This document shows positions 3,552-20,099 of a stretch of DNA of 50,850 nt, piece after piece. Location of the stretch: positions 1 to 50,850 of the IMG/VR virus record IMGVR_UViG_3300027733_000072; one strand, 5' to 3'. The notes below the pieces were generated by a model that ran no database searches, was not told where the DNA came from, and was given only the letters and a program-made list of their open reading frames with translations. Positions within the stretch are counted from its first letter, which is position 1; the number at the start of each line of letters is the position of its first letter. This stretch comes from a virus. Both the position numbers and the translations under genes were made by a program.

Positions 3552-4125
3552 TCTCTGATAGTATCAGATTGAGAGGCTTGTTTTTAAGTATTGCTTTAAC
3601 TCCAGAATTTAAGGCACCTTCATAATCAGATCTCTGACTATCCCCAATCATAAGTAATTGTTTAGGTTGTAAACCGCTATGTTTTATGACCATTTCAAAG
3701 GCTTCGGGTTGGGGTTTTCTGTATCCAATATCACAGGAAAAGAATATCTTATCAAAGTATTTATCAATACCTAAATTAAACACACACTCTTTATATGGAG
3801 TAGCAATATTTGATAATAGATAAAGTTTATACTTTTTAGATAGTGTCTCTAATACTTGAATAGTATCATCAAATAAGTGTGTTGACTCAATTTCTAATTT
3901 TATATCATGTTCTAATTGTGATGTATATACAAATTGGCCTGGTTTTATTTCTTCTACAATCTCTTGTAGATATGAATAATTTTTGGTCATGACTTTATCC
4001 GCCCAATAGTTCATTTCTTCTTTGGTTAGACCTATATTCTTAAATAAGTTTAGATAAGGTCTAGCTTTATACTCGGAGTATAATAAAGTACCATATAAGT
4101 CAAGTATAATAGATTTAGTTTGCAT
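3544..4125 (-). CDS. HAD-superfamily hydrolase
   Basis: A 193-residue HAD phosphatase/dehalogenase-type enzyme. Motif I is DLYGTLL (nucleophile D9, with Tyr at the usual second Asp, as in haloacid-dehalogenase-like members). Motif II is LLSNIA, motif III is the Lys in GYRKPQPEAF, and motif IV is MIGDSQRSDYEGA. The cap region lies between motifs I and II. Substrate cannot be read; phage HAD proteins often act on nucleotides or sugar phosphates. The start overlaps the end of the peptidase gene by 11 bp, indicating an operon. Confidence 0.85.
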   Translation of the reverse strand: MQTKSIILDLYGTLLYSEYKARPYLNLFKNIGLTKEEMNYWADKVMTKNYSYLQEIVEEIKPGQFVYTSQLEHDIKLEIESTHLFDDTIQVLETLSKKYKLYLLSNIATPYKECVFNLGIDKYFDKIFFSCDIGYRKPQPEAFEMVIKHSGLQPKQLLMIGDSQRSDYEGALNSGVKAILKNKPLNLILSEIN

Positions 4126-5209
4126 ACTCGGCGATTTTTGATAGTTTTGTATAGTCTTTACCTAATTTAACATTAGACTTCAAATGTGAATATGGTATAT
4201 ATTGTAGTTCGGGAATAAAATTTATTAAATCCTGTCTATTTCCTATAAAATCATATGACTCATGCTCTTGACAATAACAAGAAGTGCCATCCCAAATTAT
4301 TAACTTTGGTGTATATCCTTTTTGTAACAACATCTTGTTGATTAAGTCTTTTTCACACTCTATCCAAGTTTTAGATATATACATTTTTTTAGTAACACTA
4401 TCTTCTGAGATATATGTAAATACACTTTCTGTATATTCATCATCAAGAACTTCAACTTCATCTTCTTCCCAGATGCCACAATCATCATCACCTGGTTGTC
4501 TGAATATAGGAAGAGATTCCCAATCAATTTTAACAACGGCTCTACACAATCTAGATAAAAATTCAATATCTTGTATCTCATTGGTTGTGTGTTCATTCCA
4601 ATATCCAACTGATATGTTTGTACATTCATGAACTAAATCAACAAATTGTGCTGAATCCGTTAATATGCCAGTATCATCTGGTTCCATTTCTAATCCTAGA
4701 CCGGTTGAATTTAGTTCATCGGCTAATGCTTGAGCAAATTCATCTGAACAACATCTACCACAAAACTGTTCGGTAATAATTGATTTGGTGCCTCTTCGGT
4801 CAAATGAGACTACTTTTGTAATGTTCATCCAATCAAAAGTCATTGATAAGTTTGAGCTACCAATACACCCAACTTCCTCACCTATAAAAAAATAATATAG
4901 TCCTGGTACTTTTTTCTCAATCATATAGAGTAGAACGGTCATTCCGGCTTTATCATCAGCACCTAAGATGGTTGAGCCATCAGTCATTATCAGATTATCT
5001 GTTTGAACGTGTTTAACAGGCTTATCATATTTACAAGCCGTATCTAAGTGGCAAGTAAACATAGTGGTGAAATTATCACCAATTGTCATAAAATAGTTAC
5101 CATGTTGGTCTTTACTTATTCCTTTTGGTAGAAATTTTCTAATTTTAGATTCTGTTCCATATGGAACTGTCTGACTGGTCAATTGTAGGAACTTTCTTCT
5201 AACTCTCAT
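4115..5209 (-). CDS. Zinc peptidase of the M20/M28/M42 type (copy 1)
   Basis: A 364-residue co-catalytic metallopeptidase. The metal and catalytic residues are visible in order: TCHLDTA (H54, D56), GADDKAG (D85), GEE (E111, E112), SFDRR (D137) and NEHT (H207). Enzymes of this clan are aminopeptidases, di/tripeptidases or carboxypeptidases. An acidic linker (about residues 243-256) leads to a C-terminal region of about 110 residues not seen in copy 2. No signal peptide, so it acts in the cytoplasm or is packaged. A paralogue lies at 12637. Its phage role is unknown. Confidence 0.8.
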   Translation of the reverse strand: MRVRRKFLQLTSQTVPYGTESKIRKFLPKGISKDQHGNYFMTIGDNFTTMFTCHLDTACKYDKPVKHVQTDNLIMTDGSTILGADDKAGMTVLLYMIEKKVPGLYYFFIGEEVGCIGSSNLSMTFDWMNITKVVSFDRRGTKSIITEQFCGRCCSDEFAQALADELNSTGLGLEMEPDDTGILTDSAQFVDLVHECTNISVGYWNEHTTNEIQDIEFLSRLCRAVVKIDWESLPIFRQPGDDDCGIWEEDEVEVLDDEYTESVFTYISEDSVTKKMYISKTWIECEKDLINKMLLQKGYTPKLIIWDGTSCYCQEHESYDFIGNRQDLINFIPELQYIPYSHLKSNVKLGKDYTKLSKIAEYAN

Positions 5210-10469: not shown

Positions 10470-10586
10470 ATGATAAAAAAACCTGGCCATTCAATGACAT
10501 CGCCTGCAACACAAGCGGTGATAAAATTAAGAATAGTTGATATATATCAAGGGTTATCATATTTAAATAAAGTTATAAATAAATGA
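10470..10586 (+). CDS. 38-residue peptide gene coupled to NFACT-R gene
   Basis: Starts MIKKPGHSMTSPATQAVI five bases after the preceding stop and ends in ATGA overlap with the NFACT-R gene at 10583. Its main role may be to deliver ribosomes to that start codon (translational coupling). No family recognised. Confidence 0.45.
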   Translation: MIKKPGHSMTSPATQAVIKLRIVDIYQGLSYLNKVINK

Positions 10587-11656
10587 GGTATATAAAAGAA
10601 TATAATGAATATCACCCAAATGAAGATACGGTTAAGAGATGGTGTGACTATTTAGATAATAATTATCCAATCAAACATGATAGTGATAAATTTATAGTGA
10701 TAGATGATAAATCATATTTTTTAACTGGAATTTTATTTAATAAAGGTAGATTGGTCAATAAAATATTTTCGGATATATTCTATTCAGATAAAATGAGTGG
10801 TTCGAAAATAGATAGACCAAGTTTGAGAAAGGCTATTAAAAATTGGGTTGATATAAATAGTGATAAATCCGTAAATGAAAATTTAGATAAATTAAATTTT
10901 AAGCCTATTATAGAAAGTTTAAGTAATCAAAAAAAAGAATACTACTATCGAATATCAGCTCCTAAATATAATGAATCGGTTGAATATGATGAAAATCCAT
11001 ATAATATGTTAAATAAAATTCGCAATTTAATTTCACCGAGTAATCCAATTTATAAATCAGTAAATAACGATGATAATGTAATATCATTTACTGTTAATAA
11101 AAAGGTATTAGATGATTATCCTGATCGAATGCGTGGTGATGATTTAAGCATTAAGTTTATAAAGGATGAATATTTTAGAGTAAAATATATTAGTAGAAAT
11201 GCTTTTAACTTTAAGTACTTCGAGTGTGACCAATTTGAAGGTCTTATTCAGTTACTTAAAGATATGGGATTAAAATTAAATGAAAGAGTTATGGAATCTA
11301 AATTAGATAGACCAAATTATAAAAAATTGGATATTGATGGATTTATAGTATATCAAGGAAAAGACGCTAAATCAAACGATTATGTGACATTTGAATTATC
11401 AGATGATGAAGACTATTGGTTACATGCTCATAACTTCCCAGGATCACATTTATTAATAAAAATAAAAGATAAATTACCACAAATTGAAACTATTAAAAAA
11501 GTAGCTGAACTCGCTGCTAAAAACTCAAAAGCTCCTAATGGAGATGTTGTAGTAGTTTGGTGTAAAAAGAAATTTGTAAAAAAGGAAATATCAATGAATA
11601 TTGGTCAAGTAAAAGTTGATTACATTAATTCAAATAAAATAACTATTGTAAAATGA
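10583..11656 (+). CDS. NFACT-R (DUF814, RqcH-type) domain protein
   Basis: A 357-residue protein. Residues about 245-357 form an NFACT-R domain: GKDAKSND (259-266; family GRN/K-x-x-QND), YWLHAHNFPGSHLLI (278-292; family DLWLH...PGSH), AAKNSKAPNGDVVVVW and GQVKVDY near the end. In bacteria this domain is part of RqcH, which binds obstructed 50S subunits and recruits tRNA-Ala for C-terminal Ala tailing. The NFACT-N and coiled-coil parts of RqcH are absent; residues 1-240 are an unrecognised domain starting MRYIKEYNEY, which fits the head-targeting pattern. The last 20 codons are duplicated at the end of the next gene, the mark of a homing-endonuclease insertion. The tmRNA lies 3.2 kb downstream. 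Confidence 0.82.
   Translation: MRYIKEYNEYHPNEDTVKRWCDYLDNNYPIKHDSDKFIVIDDKSYFLTGILFNKGRLVNKIFSDIFYSDKMSGSKIDRPSLRKAIKNWVDINSDKSVNENLDKLNFKPIIESLSNQKKEYYYRISAPKYNESVEYDENPYNMLNKIRNLISPSNPIYKSVNNDDNVISFTVNKKVLDDYPDRMRGDDLSIKFIKDEYFRVKYISRNAFNFKYFECDQFEGLIQLLKDMGLKLNERVMESKLDRPNYKKLDIDGFIVYQGKDAKSNDYVTFELSDDEDYWLHAHNFPGSHLLIKIKDKLPQIETIKKVAELAAKNSKAPNGDVVVVWCKKKFVKKEISMNIGQVKVDYINSNKITIVK
11594..11656 (+). repeat. Recoded 3' end of NFACT-R gene, copy 1
   Basis: Encodes MNIGQVKVDYINSNKITIVK. The same peptide with substitutions is encoded at 12562-12627. Synonymous changes are frequent, so the DNA is more diverged than the protein. Confidence 0.7.
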
Positions 11657-12627
11657 ATTTTGTAGATTTTAAAATAGCATCGAATACTATATTTAATAAT
11701 AAATATGATTACACAAAGTCAATTTTCATTAATTTAAAGGTACCTATTATGATATCATGTCCAAAACATGGAGATTTTAAAAAAATGCCATATCAACATA
11801 TCAACAGAAAAAGTGGATGTAATTTATGTTATAAAGAAAATAGAAAAAATAATAAATCACATAGAATTTATTTTAAGGATATTTTAATAGAATTTAGAAA
11901 AGTGCATGGATATAAATATGAGTATAATGAATTATCATATATTAATACATTAACAAAAATTGAAATAACTTGTAAAAAACATGGTATATTCAAGCAGACC
12001 CCAAAACAACATAAAAATGGATATGGATGTCAGATATGTGGTGGTTCTAAAAAGTTATCCAATGATGATTTCATAAACAATAGTAAAAATATACATGGTG
12101 ATAAATATGATTATTCAATTACTAAATATGTAAATATTAACACAAAAGTAAAAATAATATGTAATAAACATGGTGAATTTTATAAAGTGCCAAAATTACA
12201 TTTGAGTGGAAGTGGTTGTCAAAAATGTAATATTAGTTCTGGTGAGAATTTAATATTAAATATTTTAGAAAAATATAAAATAGAGTATATCTATCAAAAA
12301 AAATTTGACAATTGTAAATTCATTAAAAGTTTATTTTTTGATTTCTATATACCTAAGTATAATATTTGTTTAGAGTTTGATGGTGAACAACATTTTAAGC
12401 CAATTGATCCGTGGGGTGGATATAAAAATTTAGATGTTATTAATAAAAGAGACAATATTAAAAACAATTGGTGTTTAGAAAACAATATAATTTTGTTTAG
12501 ATTTTCAGATAAGAAAACTTTAGAAGATGATATGATAGAAAAATTCATATTAAAAATAGGTATGAATCCTGGACAAGTTAAGGTTGATTATAACAATGCT
12601 TATGAAATAACCGTATCTAAAAAATAA
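11653..12627 (+). CDS. Homing endonuclease: DUF723-type zinc repeats plus EDxHD/Vsr-like nuclease
   Basis: A 324-residue protein. Three repeats of about 60-70 residues each have KYDY/KYEY, a C-x-K/P-K-H-G segment and a closing CxxC (C36/C56/C59, C107/C126/C129, C170/C189/C192), as in DUF723 DNA-binding ribbons. The nuclease domain has FDFYIP (D230) and LEFDGEQHF (E241, D243, H247), the pattern of Vsr-like EDxHD homing endonucleases such as I-Bth0305I. Residues 304-324 are not nuclease: they repeat the NFACT-R C-terminus. Start overlaps the upstream stop by ATGA. It uses the AT-richest codons of the area, a sign of mobility. The target is probably the intact NFACT-R gene at this spot. Confidence 0.85.
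   Translation: MNFVDFKIASNTIFNNKYDYTKSIFINLKVPIMISCPKHGDFKKMPYQHINRKSGCNLCYKENRKNNKSHRIYFKDILIEFRKVHGYKYEYNELSYINTLTKIEITCKKHGIFKQTPKQHKNGYGCQICGGSKKLSNDDFINNSKNIHGDKYDYSITKYVNINTKVKIICNKHGEFYKVPKLHLSGSGCQKCNISSGENLILNILEKYKIEYIYQKKFDNCKFIKSLFFDFYIPKYNICLEFDGEQHFKPIDPWGGYKNLDVINKRDNIKNNWCLENNIILFRFSDKKTLEDDMIEKFILKIGMNPGQVKVDYNNAYEITVSKK
12562..12627 (+). repeat. Original 3' end of NFACT-R gene fused to the endonuclease, copy 2
   Basis: Encodes MNPGQVKVDYNNAYEITVSK plus one Lys. It keeps the P-G-x-V typical of the NFACT-R family, so it is probably the ancestral end, displaced by insertion of the endonuclease gene. Confidence 0.7.
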
Positions 12628-12636
12628 TATATACAA

Positions 12637-14280
12637 GTGAAGGCAGTTTATTTGACTAAAGGAGCATTAGATATTTTTGATGAAATGGGATATTCACATT
12701 TCTTTAGAAAAATAATAAACGGTCTTCAAGCTTCAATGAATAGAAGTGATGTTCCTTCTTCACAAAGAGTGACTTTGGGAAAAGAAAATATGACTTCTGA
12801 TTTATTAAAGCAAGTTTTAGGAAATGATTATGTGAATGAAGATGATTTAGAAGCATTTGTACACATCTTCAATGAAAAGGCTAATAAAAAGGAAACAAAA
12901 AAAGAAATGGGATTTTACAAAAACCAACAAATAGAACAACAAAGTGGTCCAACTTTAATTAAGTTCACTGATGATTTCTGGCAAATGCTAGATAAGATAA
13001 GACCTGGTAGTGATATTGTTTGGGATTTATACTCTTTGGATTCTAACCCAGATATTAAAAATGTAATGGGTATTACAGAATTAGACATTTCGGATAAAGA
13101 ATGGTATTTTGATATTAAGACCGGATCTAAACCTGGTCAAATTAAAGTGGCTCAGTTTATTAGATACTTCTTCAAAGAAAAGTTTACACAAGACCAAATT
13201 TTTAAATTTACACAATCTTATAATAAAATTATTGGCAAAATATCGGGTAAAGAGTCTAAAGTTGGTAACCTAATTACACCAAGAGAGTTTAAGTACGAAC
13301 CAAGTAATGTTAGAGAAACATTTATTTCACTTGTTACCGAAACTTATCCGATGGGACATGAGGAAGAAGTTGTTCCTTTTATAACACCTGGATTAACAAG
13401 AGATAAATATGGTAATTATTACACAATAATTGGTAACTCCGATACCGCTTTTACTTGTCACCTAGATACTGCTTCTAGAACAAAAGATAAAGTTGGATTA
13501 GTTGGATATAAAAAAGATGGTCAAGATTTTATAATGACGGATGGTACTTCTATCTTAGGAGCTGATGATAAATCAGGAGTTGCTATTCTTATGTATATGA
13601 TTGATAAACAAATACCCGGTGTATATTGGTTCTTCTATGGTGAAGAAAGAGGTGGTGTTGGTTCTGGTAAAGTTGCAATGGACTATGATTCGTATGAATT
13701 TATGAAGGGTATTAAGAAAATGGTATCTTTTGATAGAAGAAATTACTATTCGGTAATCACATCACAGATGGGTATTCCTTGTTGTTCTAATGAATTTGCA
13801 GAGTCTCTTTGTAAAGAATTAAATAAAAGTGGATTGAAATTAAATTTAGATCCAACTGGTGTATTTACGGATTCTGCTAATTTTATTGATATGATTGGAG
13901 AGTGTACTAACGTATCGGTTGGTTATTTTAATGAACACACAGATGATGAATTGCAAAATATTACTTATTTAGAAAGATTGGCTCAAGCTTGTGTAGCAGC
14001 TAATTGGGATAAATTAGAGGTTAAAAGAAAGATCGGATTTGATGATGCAATTGCTAGAAAGTATAATAGATTAATCAAGCAATTTAAGAAATCAATTTTC
14101 TATAATGTTGATAGTATAAAAGGTGAGAATGGTAAATTAGTTATTGATTTAGAAATAAATGATAATGATATTAATCACTTCTATAAAGACTTAACACAAT
14201 TACAACAATTGTTTACTACATATAAATTAGATCCAGATATTAAATTCTACGATGATCATATAAAAATAGAACTTGAATAA
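12637..14280 (+). CDS. Zinc peptidase of the M20/M28/M42 type (copy 2) with two N-terminal phage modules
   Basis: A 547-residue protein starting at GTG. Residues about 220-460 are the peptidase: TCHLDTA (H275, D277), GADDKSG (D310), GEE (E336, E337), SFDRR (D366), NEHT (H434). All metal positions seen in copy 1 are kept and the two are clear paralogues. Residues 1-85 and 105-200 are two copies of a module also found at the N-terminus of the three large proteins at 18516, 22639 and 30966 (pattern: hydrophobic-T/S-x-x-F...LDKI, then DISD, then a helix with FTQDQIFKF). A C-terminal helical region follows. It overlaps the next gene by one base. Confidence 0.8.
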   Translation: MKAVYLTKGALDIFDEMGYSHFFRKIINGLQASMNRSDVPSSQRVTLGKENMTSDLLKQVLGNDYVNEDDLEAFVHIFNEKANKKETKKEMGFYKNQQIEQQSGPTLIKFTDDFWQMLDKIRPGSDIVWDLYSLDSNPDIKNVMGITELDISDKEWYFDIKTGSKPGQIKVAQFIRYFFKEKFTQDQIFKFTQSYNKIIGKISGKESKVGNLITPREFKYEPSNVRETFISLVTETYPMGHEEEVVPFITPGLTRDKYGNYYTIIGNSDTAFTCHLDTASRTKDKVGLVGYKKDGQDFIMTDGTSILGADDKSGVAILMYMIDKQIPGVYWFFYGEERGGVGSGKVAMDYDSYEFMKGIKKMVSFDRRNYYSVITSQMGIPCCSNEFAESLCKELNKSGLKLNLDPTGVFTDSANFIDMIGECTNVSVGYFNEHTDDELQNITYLERLAQACVAANWDKLEVKRKIGFDDAIARKYNRLIKQFKKSIFYNVDSIKGENGKLVIDLEINDNDINHFYKDLTQLQQLFTTYKLDPDIKFYDDHIKIELE

Positions 14281-14789
14281 TGAAACTAAAAAACTATAAA
14301 GAACTTCTAAATGAAGAACGCGGAGAAGAGGATGAATTTGATAATACATCAGATAGCTCTGATTTTGGTGATAGTGAATACTATGGTGGGGAAGATGAAG
14401 AGTCTATGTATGATGATGAGAATGATTATGATGACGAAGATGAAGAAGACTACGCTCGTAGAGACAATGATCCAACATCCGATGATGTTTTAGAACATTT
14501 AGCTTCTTTAATTAGGCAAATGATTAAGTTGGCTAATATTGAGAACTATTATGTTACTACTGATGGATATGATTTAAGTATTCAGTTTGTTTTGAACAAA
14601 ACTGAGAGATTTAATAAATTAATGAAAATTATGGGTTTATTGAAGAAGTTAACAACTGATACACTTATTCAATATGAATCCGAAATGGATTTATGGGAAA
14701 CTAAAGAAGGTCATCCATTATTAACTGTTGATTTTTACTATGATAGTAAAAAGAGTGGTTCATTTAAGAAAGATGATGTTCCATTTTAA
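14280..14789 (+). CDS. Acidic hypothetical protein with head-targeting-like N-terminus
   Basis: A 169-residue protein. MKLKNYKELLNEE fits the N-terminal pattern of T4 internal head proteins, with E at the expected cleavage place. Residues 14-65 are an extreme run of Asp, Glu, Ser and Tyr. Residues 70-169 form a compact alpha/beta domain (IRQMIKLANIENYYVTTDG). Such an acidic stretch could mimic DNA or keep the protein unfolded. Starts on the last base of the peptidase stop codon (TAATG). Confidence 0.65.
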   Translation: MKLKNYKELLNEERGEEDEFDNTSDSSDFGDSEYYGGEDEESMYDDENDYDDEDEEDYARRDNDPTSDDVLEHLASLIRQMIKLANIENYYVTTDGYDLSIQFVLNKTERFNKLMKIMGLLKKLTTDTLIQYESEMDLWETKEGHPLLTVDFYYDSKKSGSFKKDDVPF

Positions 14790-14810: not shown

Positions 14811-14841
14811 TTTGATTTTTAGGATATTATATATATCTTTG
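14811..14841 (+). promoter_or_regulatory. Bacteroidetes-type promoter of the tmRNA
   Basis: TTTG at 14811-14814, then 19 bp, then TATCTTTG at 14834-14841: an exact match to the Bacteroidetes primary sigma consensus (TTTG, about 19-20 bp, TAnnTTTG). The tmRNA 5' end follows 17 bases later, leaving room for a short leader removed by RNase P. Confidence 0.8.
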
Positions 14842-14857
14842 TAAAAGTAATTAACAC

Positions 14858-15210
14858 GGGGGTGATTAGTATTGATTCGTAGGGTAAGGTTAATTATGCA
14901 GGCATCGGATGATATCTAACCGATTAAATCACGGTATCAAACGCTTTAAACGGCAAAACAACTGAAGTAGCAGGCAAAGAAGATTTAGTATTTGCTCTAC
15001 GCAACAACATCTTAAAGGCAAACGAAGTAGCTGTATTAGCTTAATAGGTTTCCAACAGTAAGAACTCTGTAAAAGTTCCGAGAAAGTTTAGGTTTGAAAC
15101 TCGTAAAAATAAAAATTTATATTTTGAAGAATTTAGAAAAATTCTCTAAGCCTGTGAATGAATAATTTGCGTTAACTAAGGAAGACTCGGTTTCGTCACC
15201 GACACCTCCA
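14858..15210 (+). ncRNA. ssrA: tmRNA (SsrA RNA), phage-encoded
   Basis: The 5' GGGGGTG pairs with 3' CACCTCC (15203-15209) as a 7 bp acceptor stem. The third pair is G-U, the identity element for alanyl-tRNA synthetase. GATTCGTAGGG follows the 5' strand, as in known tmRNAs (GATTCGACGGG). Long-range helix P2 pairs AATTAT GCAGGC (14892-14903) with GCCTGT and ATAATT (15150-15167). The T-arm is TCGGT/ACCGA around TTCGTC, a six-base loop, one shorter than usual. CCA is not encoded (ACAA follows the stem). It rescues stalled ribosomes by adding a tag and releasing the mRNA. Own promoter and terminator flank it. Confidence 0.88.
14952..15044 (+). other. tmRNA tag reading frame, unusually long
   Basis: If translation resumes at GGC (14952), directly after TTAAAC, the tag is 30 residues: begins GKTTEVAGKEDLVF, ends ILKANEVAVLA, then TAATAG. 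A GCT resume codon at 14943 would give 33 residues. Usual tags have 8-15 residues and end in ALAA; here the end is AVLA, still small and hydrophobic. Which codon is used cannot be decided by reading. Confidence 0.65.
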
Positions 15211-15216
15211 CAAATC

Positions 15217-15247
15217 AAACCCACTTAAAAATTAAGTGGGTTTTTTA
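15217..15247 (+). terminator. Terminator of the tmRNA
   Basis: AAACCCACTTAA and TTAAGTGGGTTT form a 12 bp stem followed by T residues, seven bases after the tmRNA acceptor stem. Confidence 0.9.
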
Positions 15248-18515: not shown

Positions 18516-20099
18516 TTAACTACATTCTGGACAATCTACTCTACCTGATCCGTCACAATTATTACATTCTTCTCTACAATTTCCTCCGCAATTATCACAG
18601 TTATTTCTACCGTTACCACCACACTCATCACATTCTTTCTTACCTTCACCATCACAAGATGTGCATTCAATTTTACCTTTACCATCACAGTCTGAGCAAT
18701 CATCATCACCATCTTTTCCGGTGCCATCACAAGATGAACATTCTTCTTCTCCTTCACCATCACAACTTGAACAATCTACTTTACCATGTCCATCACATTC
18801 ACCACATTCAATATCTCCATCACCATCACATTCTGAACATGGGAAATCACCATCACCTTCACAATCTGGACAATCTACTCGATTATCCCCACCACAATAG
18901 TCACACTCATCACTATTAGAATAACCACCACCGGTGTCTTCTAATAAATAGTAATCACCCATTGATTCGGTAGATAATGTTCCACTATCTGGATTATAAT
19001 ATTTAAGAGTATCTAAATAAGGATATTTACGATACCCACCTTTACCAACTTTAACCACTAATGTTCCCATTCTAACAACTGAACCATCTGGTGAAACCAT
19101 ATCATTACTAGTCATGTGATTGTTATTTGGCTTATAGTACCAACCTTTAGACTTAGCGTATAATCTAAACAACTCAACATCAGACTCATTGTGTGTGTAG
19201 ATTCTATCCATATAAGTAATTCCTTCAGGTGATTTTAATTTCCAAACTAAAGCTCTACCTTTTATCTTTTGACCATCTTCTGTTTTGAGTATTAATAATT
19301 CGCAAGAATCTTGATTACTTGTATAAATCTCAAAGAAACTTGATGATACACCAGACATACAAGATCCACTTAAAGTGCCTTTATTTCTCCCTAATTCATA
19401 ATTATTATAGTTATACCAATGAGCAATATCATCACCTTTTACTAATTCAAAATATCTAAAAACATCATTCATTTTTTCAATTTCAGCTTTGAAAAGGTTA
19501 ACAAATTTTTCTATATCACTATCTGTAAAAGTAGCACCACCGGCTGTTAAGAGACCTTTAATTCCTCTACCAATTCTTATTTTCTGACGACCTTGTGTAA
19601 ATGGTAATTTACTTACATCTTCATATTTAATTTTTTCCTGGTTGATAACTGATATACCATCTGGAAATTGTATTTTAAGATATGTTTTTCCAGATGATGG
19701 TCCAACTGCTTTCGATAAAACCTCACCTTTTGTTCCTACTTCTGGTCTGTACATTCTATCACCAGTTGGTTGATAGTCTAATAAGTTGAATATTGCTGCA
19801 TTCGATGGACCGTGTGTTAATATACCACCATCGCCATTATAAATAGCAAACTTTTCTAAATTTTCAGGACTTAATATTTGTTGAGCTCTTCTATCTGGTA
19901 TAAAAGAAATTTGTTCTTTATCATCAGATACATCAATATAGTTATTAGCTACAGTTAAGTCTTTACTTTCAATATCTTGTAAAGCTTTAGCTATTGGAGA
20001 ATCTATTTCTTTGAGTAAATTCTTAAATTTATCAGAATAAATCAAAGTAGATTCTAATAATAACGATTCAAATAAAAAGTCTTTGTATTTCTTTAGCAT
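18516..20099 (-). CDS. Large phage protein of the GTL-x-SCM family with long DnaJ-like cysteine array
   Basis: A 527-residue protein. MLKKYKDFLFESLLLES is a head-targeting-like start. Residues about 14-200 contain the module shared with the proteins at 12637, 22639 and 30966. Next comes the family core VKGDDIAHWYNYNNY, GTLSGSCMSG, FEIYTSNQD, RALVWKL and YMDRIYTHNESD. The C-terminus holds twelve CxxC motifs, mostly in the C-x-x-C-x-G-x-G form of the DnaJ zinc finger, which normally has four. The core may be enzymatic (conserved W-Y, S-C-M, R-A-L-x-W, D-R-I-Y) but no known fold is recognised. Probably a packaged, zinc-binding protein. Confidence 0.75.
   Translation of the reverse strand: MLKKYKDFLFESLLLESTLIYSDKFKNLLKEIDSPIAKALQDIESKDLTVANNYIDVSDDKEQISFIPDRRAQQILSPENLEKFAIYNGDGGILTHGPSNAAIFNLLDYQPTGDRMYRPEVGTKGEVLSKAVGPSSGKTYLKIQFPDGISVINQEKIKYEDVSKLPFTQGRQKIRIGRGIKGLLTAGGATFTDSDIEKFVNLFKAEIEKMNDVFRYFELVKGDDIAHWYNYNNYELGRNKGTLSGSCMSGVSSSFFEIYTSNQDSCELLILKTEDGQKIKGRALVWKLKSPEGITYMDRIYTHNESDVELFRLYAKSKGWYYKPNNNHMTSNDMVSPDGSVVRMGTLVVKVGKGGYRKYPYLDTLKYYNPDSGTLSTESMGDYYLLEDTGGGYSNSDECDYCGGDNRVDCPDCEGDGDFPCSECDGDGDIECGECDGHGKVDCSSCDGEGEEECSSCDGTGKDGDDDCSDCDGKGKIECTSCDGEGKKECDECGGNGRNNCDNCGGNCREECNNCDGSGRVDCPECS
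18525..18905 (-). repeat. Tandem coding repeats for CxxCxGxG units
   Basis: Near-periodic DNA of about 24-39 bp units (CATCACA, GTCCATCACA and similar on the plus strand), each encoding one C-x-x-C-x-G-x-G unit of the gene at 18516. Expanded by local duplication; coding, not CRISPR. Confidence 0.75.

Follow-up and report, generated by a model that had tools for sequence, protein, structure and literature searches.

The window, a stretch of 50,850 nucleotides comprising positions 1 to 50,850 of IMG/VR virus record IMGVR_UViG_3300027733_000072, carries a tmRNA gene preceded by a promoter and followed by an intrinsic terminator (Table 1). A first-pass annotation made from the letters alone had proposed a phage-encoded tmRNA with a G3-U acceptor stem, a P2 helix, a TAA TAG double stop and a terminator, and each of these elements was located. 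The Bacteroidetes-type promoter described there is also present; its exact spacing occurs only four times in the window with both strands counted, and the layout (spacing 17-21) precedes 26 of 39 homologous tmRNAs. Gene order around the tmRNA is conserved in the clade to which the window belongs, running from a gene for a protein with an NFACT-R domain through a peptidase-T-like gene and ORF169 to the tmRNA and a DNA methyltransferase gene. Neither this conserved NFACT-R/peptidase neighbourhood nor the membership of the tag in a conserved peptide family had been noticed in the first-pass annotation.

Table 1. Features of the tmRNA locus and its upstream genes (window coordinates)
Feature	Position	Strand	Evidence or remark
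Protein with C-terminal NFACT-R domain (RqcH/Rqc2-type RNA-binding)	10583..11656	+	PF05670, E 1.8e-11
Metallopeptidase resembling peptidase T	12637..14280	+	PHROG 4191 peptidase, E 1e-67
ORF169, 169 aa, acidic N-terminus and predicted alpha-beta-beta-alpha-beta-beta domain	14280..14789	+	
Bacteroidetes-type promoter, TTTG-N19-TATCTTTG	14811..14841	+	TTTG at 14811, TATCTTTG at 14834-14841
tmRNA (ssrA), 356 nt as modelled, encoded 3' ACAA included	14858..15213	+	RF00023 match
Acceptor stem 5' strand GGGGGUG, G3-U pair	14858..14864	+	7 bp with 15203-15209
Helix P2 5' strand	14892..14903	+	Pairs with 15150-15167
Pseudoknot PK1	14904..14938	+	
PK1 stem 1, AUCGG/CCGAU	14904-14908 with 14920-14924		
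PK1 stem 2, GAUAUC/GGUAUC	14911-14916 with 14933-14938		
Tag frame, 30 codons from resume codon GGC: GKTTEVAGKEDLVFALRNNILKANEVAVLA	14952..15041	+	
Double stop TAA TAG ending the tag frame	15042..15047	+	
Helix P2 3' strand	15150..15167	+	Comparative pairing
T-arm UCGGU-UUCGUC-ACCGA, 6-nt non-canonical loop	15187..15202	+	
Acceptor 3' strand CACCUCC, discriminator A, then CAA; CCA unencoded	15203..15213	+	
Intrinsic terminator AAACCCACTT...AAGTGGGTTTTTT	15217..15246	+	

The Rfam tmRNA model RF00023 matched this RNA over its full length (model positions 1-374, E 4e-13, 36.7 bits), with the match beginning and ending exactly at the acceptor ends. The score lies under the 47-bit gathering cut-off, which is a search threshold and not a biological feature, and neither a default Rfam scan nor ARAGORN reported a tmRNA in the window. 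The Infernal search that had been suggested as a check was thus positive as a full-length match and empty at the default setting, and since the model does match, an absent Infernal hit counts against the assignment only at the default cut-off. Agreement with one-piece tmRNAs of RF00023 extends to length, element order, the G3-U acceptor, placement of PK1 upstream of the resume codon, P2 and the tag frame with its stop, the differences being the sub-threshold score and the T-loop. The window T-loop has six bases compared with seven in the canonical TTCRANY, and this is probably why the Rfam score is low and ARAGORN misses the gene. Most relatives have a GGCAGUA-type T-loop on a six-pair stem and canonical TTCRAAT loops were present only in L008, L016, L044, L060 and L121; some relatives with a canonical T-loop are detected by ARAGORN, and one also clears the Rfam cut-off (65.3 bits).

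Structural evidence for the window tmRNA is comparative and does not come from single-sequence folding, which was not significant (z -0.9). Across the 39 genes, P2 and PK1 stem 1 carry changes on both sides yet remain paired in 97-100% of cells, compared with 2-50% for slid controls; within PK1, stem 1 was paired in 100% and stem 2 in 74% of cells, both above the slid controls. Acceptor stems differ among homologues yet stay paired (GGGGAUG/CAUCUCC, GUGGGUG/CACCUAC, GGGGGCG/CGCCUCC), this pairing having been judged per sequence because a MAFFT alignment misplaced the acceptor ends. The 7-bp acceptor with a G3-U70 alanine identity pair was found in the window and in homologues with both ends resolved, although the end-choosing script favoured G3-U. 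The 3' CCA is mostly unencoded among the homologous tmRNAs. This, together with the departure of most clade members from the canonical T-loop, is what would be expected of a decaying or inhibitory tmRNA mimic in which trans-translation has been lost, and in phage DS6A a tag-less tmRNA-like RNA inhibits the host tmRNA (PMC4131195, PMC11915505). Such a mimic is the least probable of the explanations considered here, since many phages preserve the frame, its stop, the acceptor, PK1 and P2, and their genomes also retain SmpB. We are nearly certain that the locus encodes a real tmRNA carrying a 30-residue tag.

The tag had been put at either 30 or 33 codons in the first-pass annotation. The resume context, UUUAAAC immediately before GGC, fits a tag of 30 codons and not 33, and in relatives with a canonical T-loop ARAGORN reads a 29-residue tag, GNTNEVGSVEDLVFALRNNILKANRLAVA, with this GGC as its first codon, which fixes the resume codon independently. 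Mapping of this codon to position 14952 retains the long tag, disposing of the earlier concern that a different resume codon might shorten it. A degenerate tag pattern matched 51 viral stretches in IMG/VR, all 51 of which encode the tag peptide. These stretches and other finds, reduced to distinct genes and including the window, gave 39 homologous genes with both RNA ends resolved and tags of 27-30 residues; L030 and L061 were dropped because their ends had been wrongly chosen, and pattern matches L018, L019, L022 and L032 had no resolvable RNA ends. Searches with neighbouring genes, in which the tag was not used, recovered diverged contigs with a tmRNA at the same locus, all keeping the tag motif. 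Relatives of the window include the phage genomes LR745206.1 (634 kb) and LR756502.1 (642 kb). When the tag was searched against all phage records only the tmRNAs of two relatives matched, indicating that there is no second copy of the peptide, and a shorter tag pattern gave nine matches in 84,980 bacterial and archaeal genomes, none of them in a tmRNA. A tag-independent RNA pattern representing the P2 3' strand yielded 30 contigs, 28 of which have long tags (about 23 residues or more): 14 belong to the class of the window (EDLV), 13 to a second class (FEDAM, 23-25 residues) and one (L133) has a tag of about 32 residues, the remaining two being short.

Tags of tmRNAs are usually short. Bacteroidota host tmRNAs had tags of 9-10 residues in 32 of 32 cases, all ending AA, which bears out the earlier claim that the phage tag is unusually long; the commonest length in a 2025 tmRNA database is 10 residues, compared with 30 in the window (PMC11915505). 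Host tmRNAs (e.g. tag GENNYALAA) likewise resume at a Gly codon whose context is similar to that in the window, whereas the phage tag adds a conserved stretch and has a different end. As also noted in the first-pass annotation, the window tag lacks the ALAA-like C-terminal end of the ssrA degron and terminates in AVLA; tags in its clade end mostly in ATV, MTV or AVA. Prevotella phage Lak-B1 (L097, L106), another huge phage of Bacteroidetes, also has tmRNA, SmpB and ClpP, but its tag, DDEIEFRMAA, has 10 residues and it encodes its own full-length ClpX (537 bits). The core tag sequences and the tag family were undescribed in the literature searched, a body of work that excluded subscription journals and tmRNA database entries. 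The first-pass statement that few phages carry tmRNA agrees with an ARAGORN count of 402 in 18,146 phage genomes (PMC9004378), although counts of this kind miss most of the clade. According to a study of huge phages, some predicted to infect Bacteroidetes carry tmRNA and SmpB, with tmRNAs called by ARAGORN (PMC7162821), a program that misses the clade tmRNA in LR745206.1 and in the window. As ARAGORN and the Rfam cut-offs both miss most of the clade, phage tmRNA is undercounted.

Selection on the tag was assessed from substitutions. Among 13 genes selected independently, or almost independently, of the tag, pS was 0.32 and pN 0.15 over codons 4-19; in each of the other two frames the ratio was close to 1. 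Six non-overlapping EDLV pairs contained 20 amino-acid changes compared with the 30.6 that their nucleotide substitutions would be expected to cause (0 of 5000 simulations), a pooled result that rests mostly on two pairs and includes one pair holding a tag-found locus; two FEDAM pairs from the tag-independent scan had 14 changes compared with 22.3 expected (0.0002). The middle of the tag is its most conserved part in both classes. Were the region kept for RNA folding instead of for its peptide, conservation of the tag nucleotides, which is also seen, would be explained, as would the weaker constraint in a larger pattern-selected set (pN/pS only 0.64); the frame-specific avoidance of amino-acid changes makes this reading very improbable. 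The tag is, in our view, very probably conserved as a peptide, and its conservation by many related viruses suggests a working signal and not an accident. Stated most safely, the locus encodes a phage tmRNA whose long tag is selected as a peptide. An amphipathic helix was considered for the conserved middle and was not supported, the hydrophobic moment being no better than that of shuffled sequences.

The FEDAM class, found in a wider phage set, has tags of 23-26 residues with a core, FEDAMxFV, that resembles the core of the window clade, and host-like ends such as YAVAA/YALAA. A FEDAM-core pattern matched at least 120 stretches, at least 100 of which pass a tmRNA-context filter, and it matched one of 395 Bacteroidota genomes. 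In many of the FEDAM-class matches listed ARAGORN reads tags such as DVELSTMTFEDAMAFVGADYAVAA, and in some it proposes other, probably wrong, frames. A common origin of the EDLV and FEDAM tags is possible, with direct homology unsupported by profile comparison and by shuffled pairwise scores. One tmRNA (L199, positions 4623-4948; tag GNSNVPFTFEDAMSLVESNEASLVEVAA) has the sole intermediate tag, one aligning well with both classes. A weak tmRNA match with a putative 33-residue tag was also observed, tentatively, in the 735-kb phage LR756501.1 (L105, positions 718288-718831), and the sequence EDMMSIPTS is common to this tag and that of L133.

Genes for potential partners of the tmRNA were sought in the larger relatives. 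SmpB is encoded in all six window-clade records of at least 227 kb, and also in LR756501.1 and Lak-B1, while neither SmpB nor ClpP was found within the 50.8-kb window fragment. ClpP is present in four of the six window-clade records of at least 227 kb, in one to three copies, and absent from the other two (385 and 227 kb) and from the 735-kb LR756501.1, so a private ClpCP cannot be general. LR745206.1 encodes an unfoldase for which the best PDB relative is ClpC (E 3e-231) and for which NCBIfam lists ClpB first, below its cut-off; a VGF motif in this protein is located where ClpC has its ClpP-binding loop. Other clade records gave weaker AAA+ matches of similar length. Only one of 11 FEDAM contigs has SmpB, and most FEDAM phages would thus use host SmpB.

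Products of the conserved neighbourhood were considered as further partners. NFACT-R is the RNA-binding domain of RqcH, and a solo NFACT-R protein from a relative matches RqcH structures (3e-14). In most loci of the clade the gene precedes the tmRNA, the domain standing alone in relatives and at the C-terminus in the window protein; the NFACT-N, HhH and coiled-coil domains of RqcH were not found, and the phage protein therefore lacks the four-domain composition of RqcH in bacterial RQC. A general role as partner of long tags was rejected for NFACT-R given its absence from eight FEDAM contigs, the L133 contig, LR756501.1, Lak-B1 and G004, and the link to the tmRNA may be one of synteny only, the domain being missing from several long-tag phages and the other RqcH domains not having been found. 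The metallopeptidase, conserved upstream of the tmRNA, resembled peptidase T only weakly in PDB searches (lowest E 8e-5). ORF169 is conserved beside the tmRNA and its structural model is confident at approximately residues 67-154; as a candidate SspB-like adaptor it was rejected, there being no PDB fold match below E 0.001.

The data are best explained by trans-translation through a phage tmRNA whose tag has been enlarged under selection and has gained a recognition element, one that probably bears on the choice of adaptor or protease; we give this model roughly even chances. Alanine-charged phage tmRNA, with SmpB that is phage-encoded in the large relatives, would enter ribosomes stalled on broken mRNA during infection, translation would resume at the GGC and the broken product would gain the 30-residue tag. 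Three parts make up the tag, namely a host-like start at the Gly resume codon, the conserved E-V-x-x-x-E-D-L-V-x-A-L-x-N-N middle and, in place of the host LAA/MAA, a small hydrophobic end. The middle, absent from host tags, would most likely send tagged products to an adaptor or protease other than those of the ordinary host Clp route; the ClpC-type unfoldase and ClpP encoded by some relatives are plausible candidates. That the middle is a recognition element changing adaptor or protease use is, in itself, about as probable as the opposite. By analogy its reader would most likely be an adaptor or unfoldase: in E. coli, upstream tag residues serve SspB (PMC8138137, PMC9382460), and the Mesoplasma florum ssrA tag, lengthened like the phage tag, goes with a change of protease, being read by Lon (PMC9382460, PMC8138137). 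In Mycoplasma species a long tag accompanies the absence of active ClpXP, and Lon would be at most a hypothetical reader of the phage tag. The suggestion in the first-pass annotation that a long tag might alter protease choice is plausible given the Mesoplasma florum precedent (PMC9382460) and the SmpB, ClpP and one confirmed ClpC-type unfoldase of relatives, and its interpretation overall is partly supported. Against the recognition model stand the scarcity of SmpB in the 23-26 residue class, which keeps host-like AVAA/ALAA ends, the lack of measurable amphipathicity in the middle, the non-canonical T-loop, which could weaken tmRNA function, and the absence of SmpB and ClpP from the window fragment and of ClpP from two clade records and the 735-kb phage.

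The same scarcity of SmpB, and the nearness of YAVAA/YALAA to host tag ends, would be expected if the long tag were passive, the hydrophobic end alone serving as a degron for host ClpXP and the middle as a spacer. This is rather unlikely, since a spacer should not keep its residues, whereas the middle is under purifying selection, and since the ends in the window clade are mostly not LAA. Loss of the host-like LAA end in this clade, and the lack of resemblance of the conserved middle to any bacterial tag examined (32 Bacteroidota tmRNAs), could alternatively indicate a targeting or stabilising label, not a degron, that sorts truncated products to a compartment or the virion or shields them from host proteases. 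Most large relatives carry ClpP, however, and some clade tags, ending AVA, LVA or VAA, resemble known ssrA degron variants, leaving a label of this kind improbable. A more far-reaching reading, to which we give somewhat less than an even chance, is that many large phages possess a specialised trans-translation system with a conserved tag of 23-30 residues containing a recognition module unknown in bacterial tags, to which the window clade adds SmpB and often Clp parts, so that rescue and disposal would be partly separate from those of the host. A tag three times the host length, conserved as a peptide in many large phages, points to a rewriting by phages of a host quality-control label. The question of why tmRNA is carried by large phages at all is thereby opened to direct testing, and long-tag tmRNAs offer new peptide tags for which the reader may be new as well.

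Several other genes in the window were observed. An HNH/homing-endonuclease-like ORF (11653-12627; PHROG 559, E 4e-65) immediately follows the NFACT-R gene. It ends in a repeat of the tail of that gene (58 bp at 74% identity) and is missing from the close relatives L004 and L009, so that it looks like a recent insertion bringing a replacement 3' end. The window contains two related peptidase-like genes, at 4115-5209 (-) and 12637-14280 (+), and in L009 the two copies are approximately 47% identical over 250 residues. On the minus strand, positions 18516-20099 encode many CxxC zinc-type repeats that resemble, by eye only, the cysteine-rich region of DnaJ. A TROVE-domain (Ro60-like) protein is encoded at 40215-41666 (PF05731, E 1.2e-19); bacterial Ro60 works with Y RNAs.
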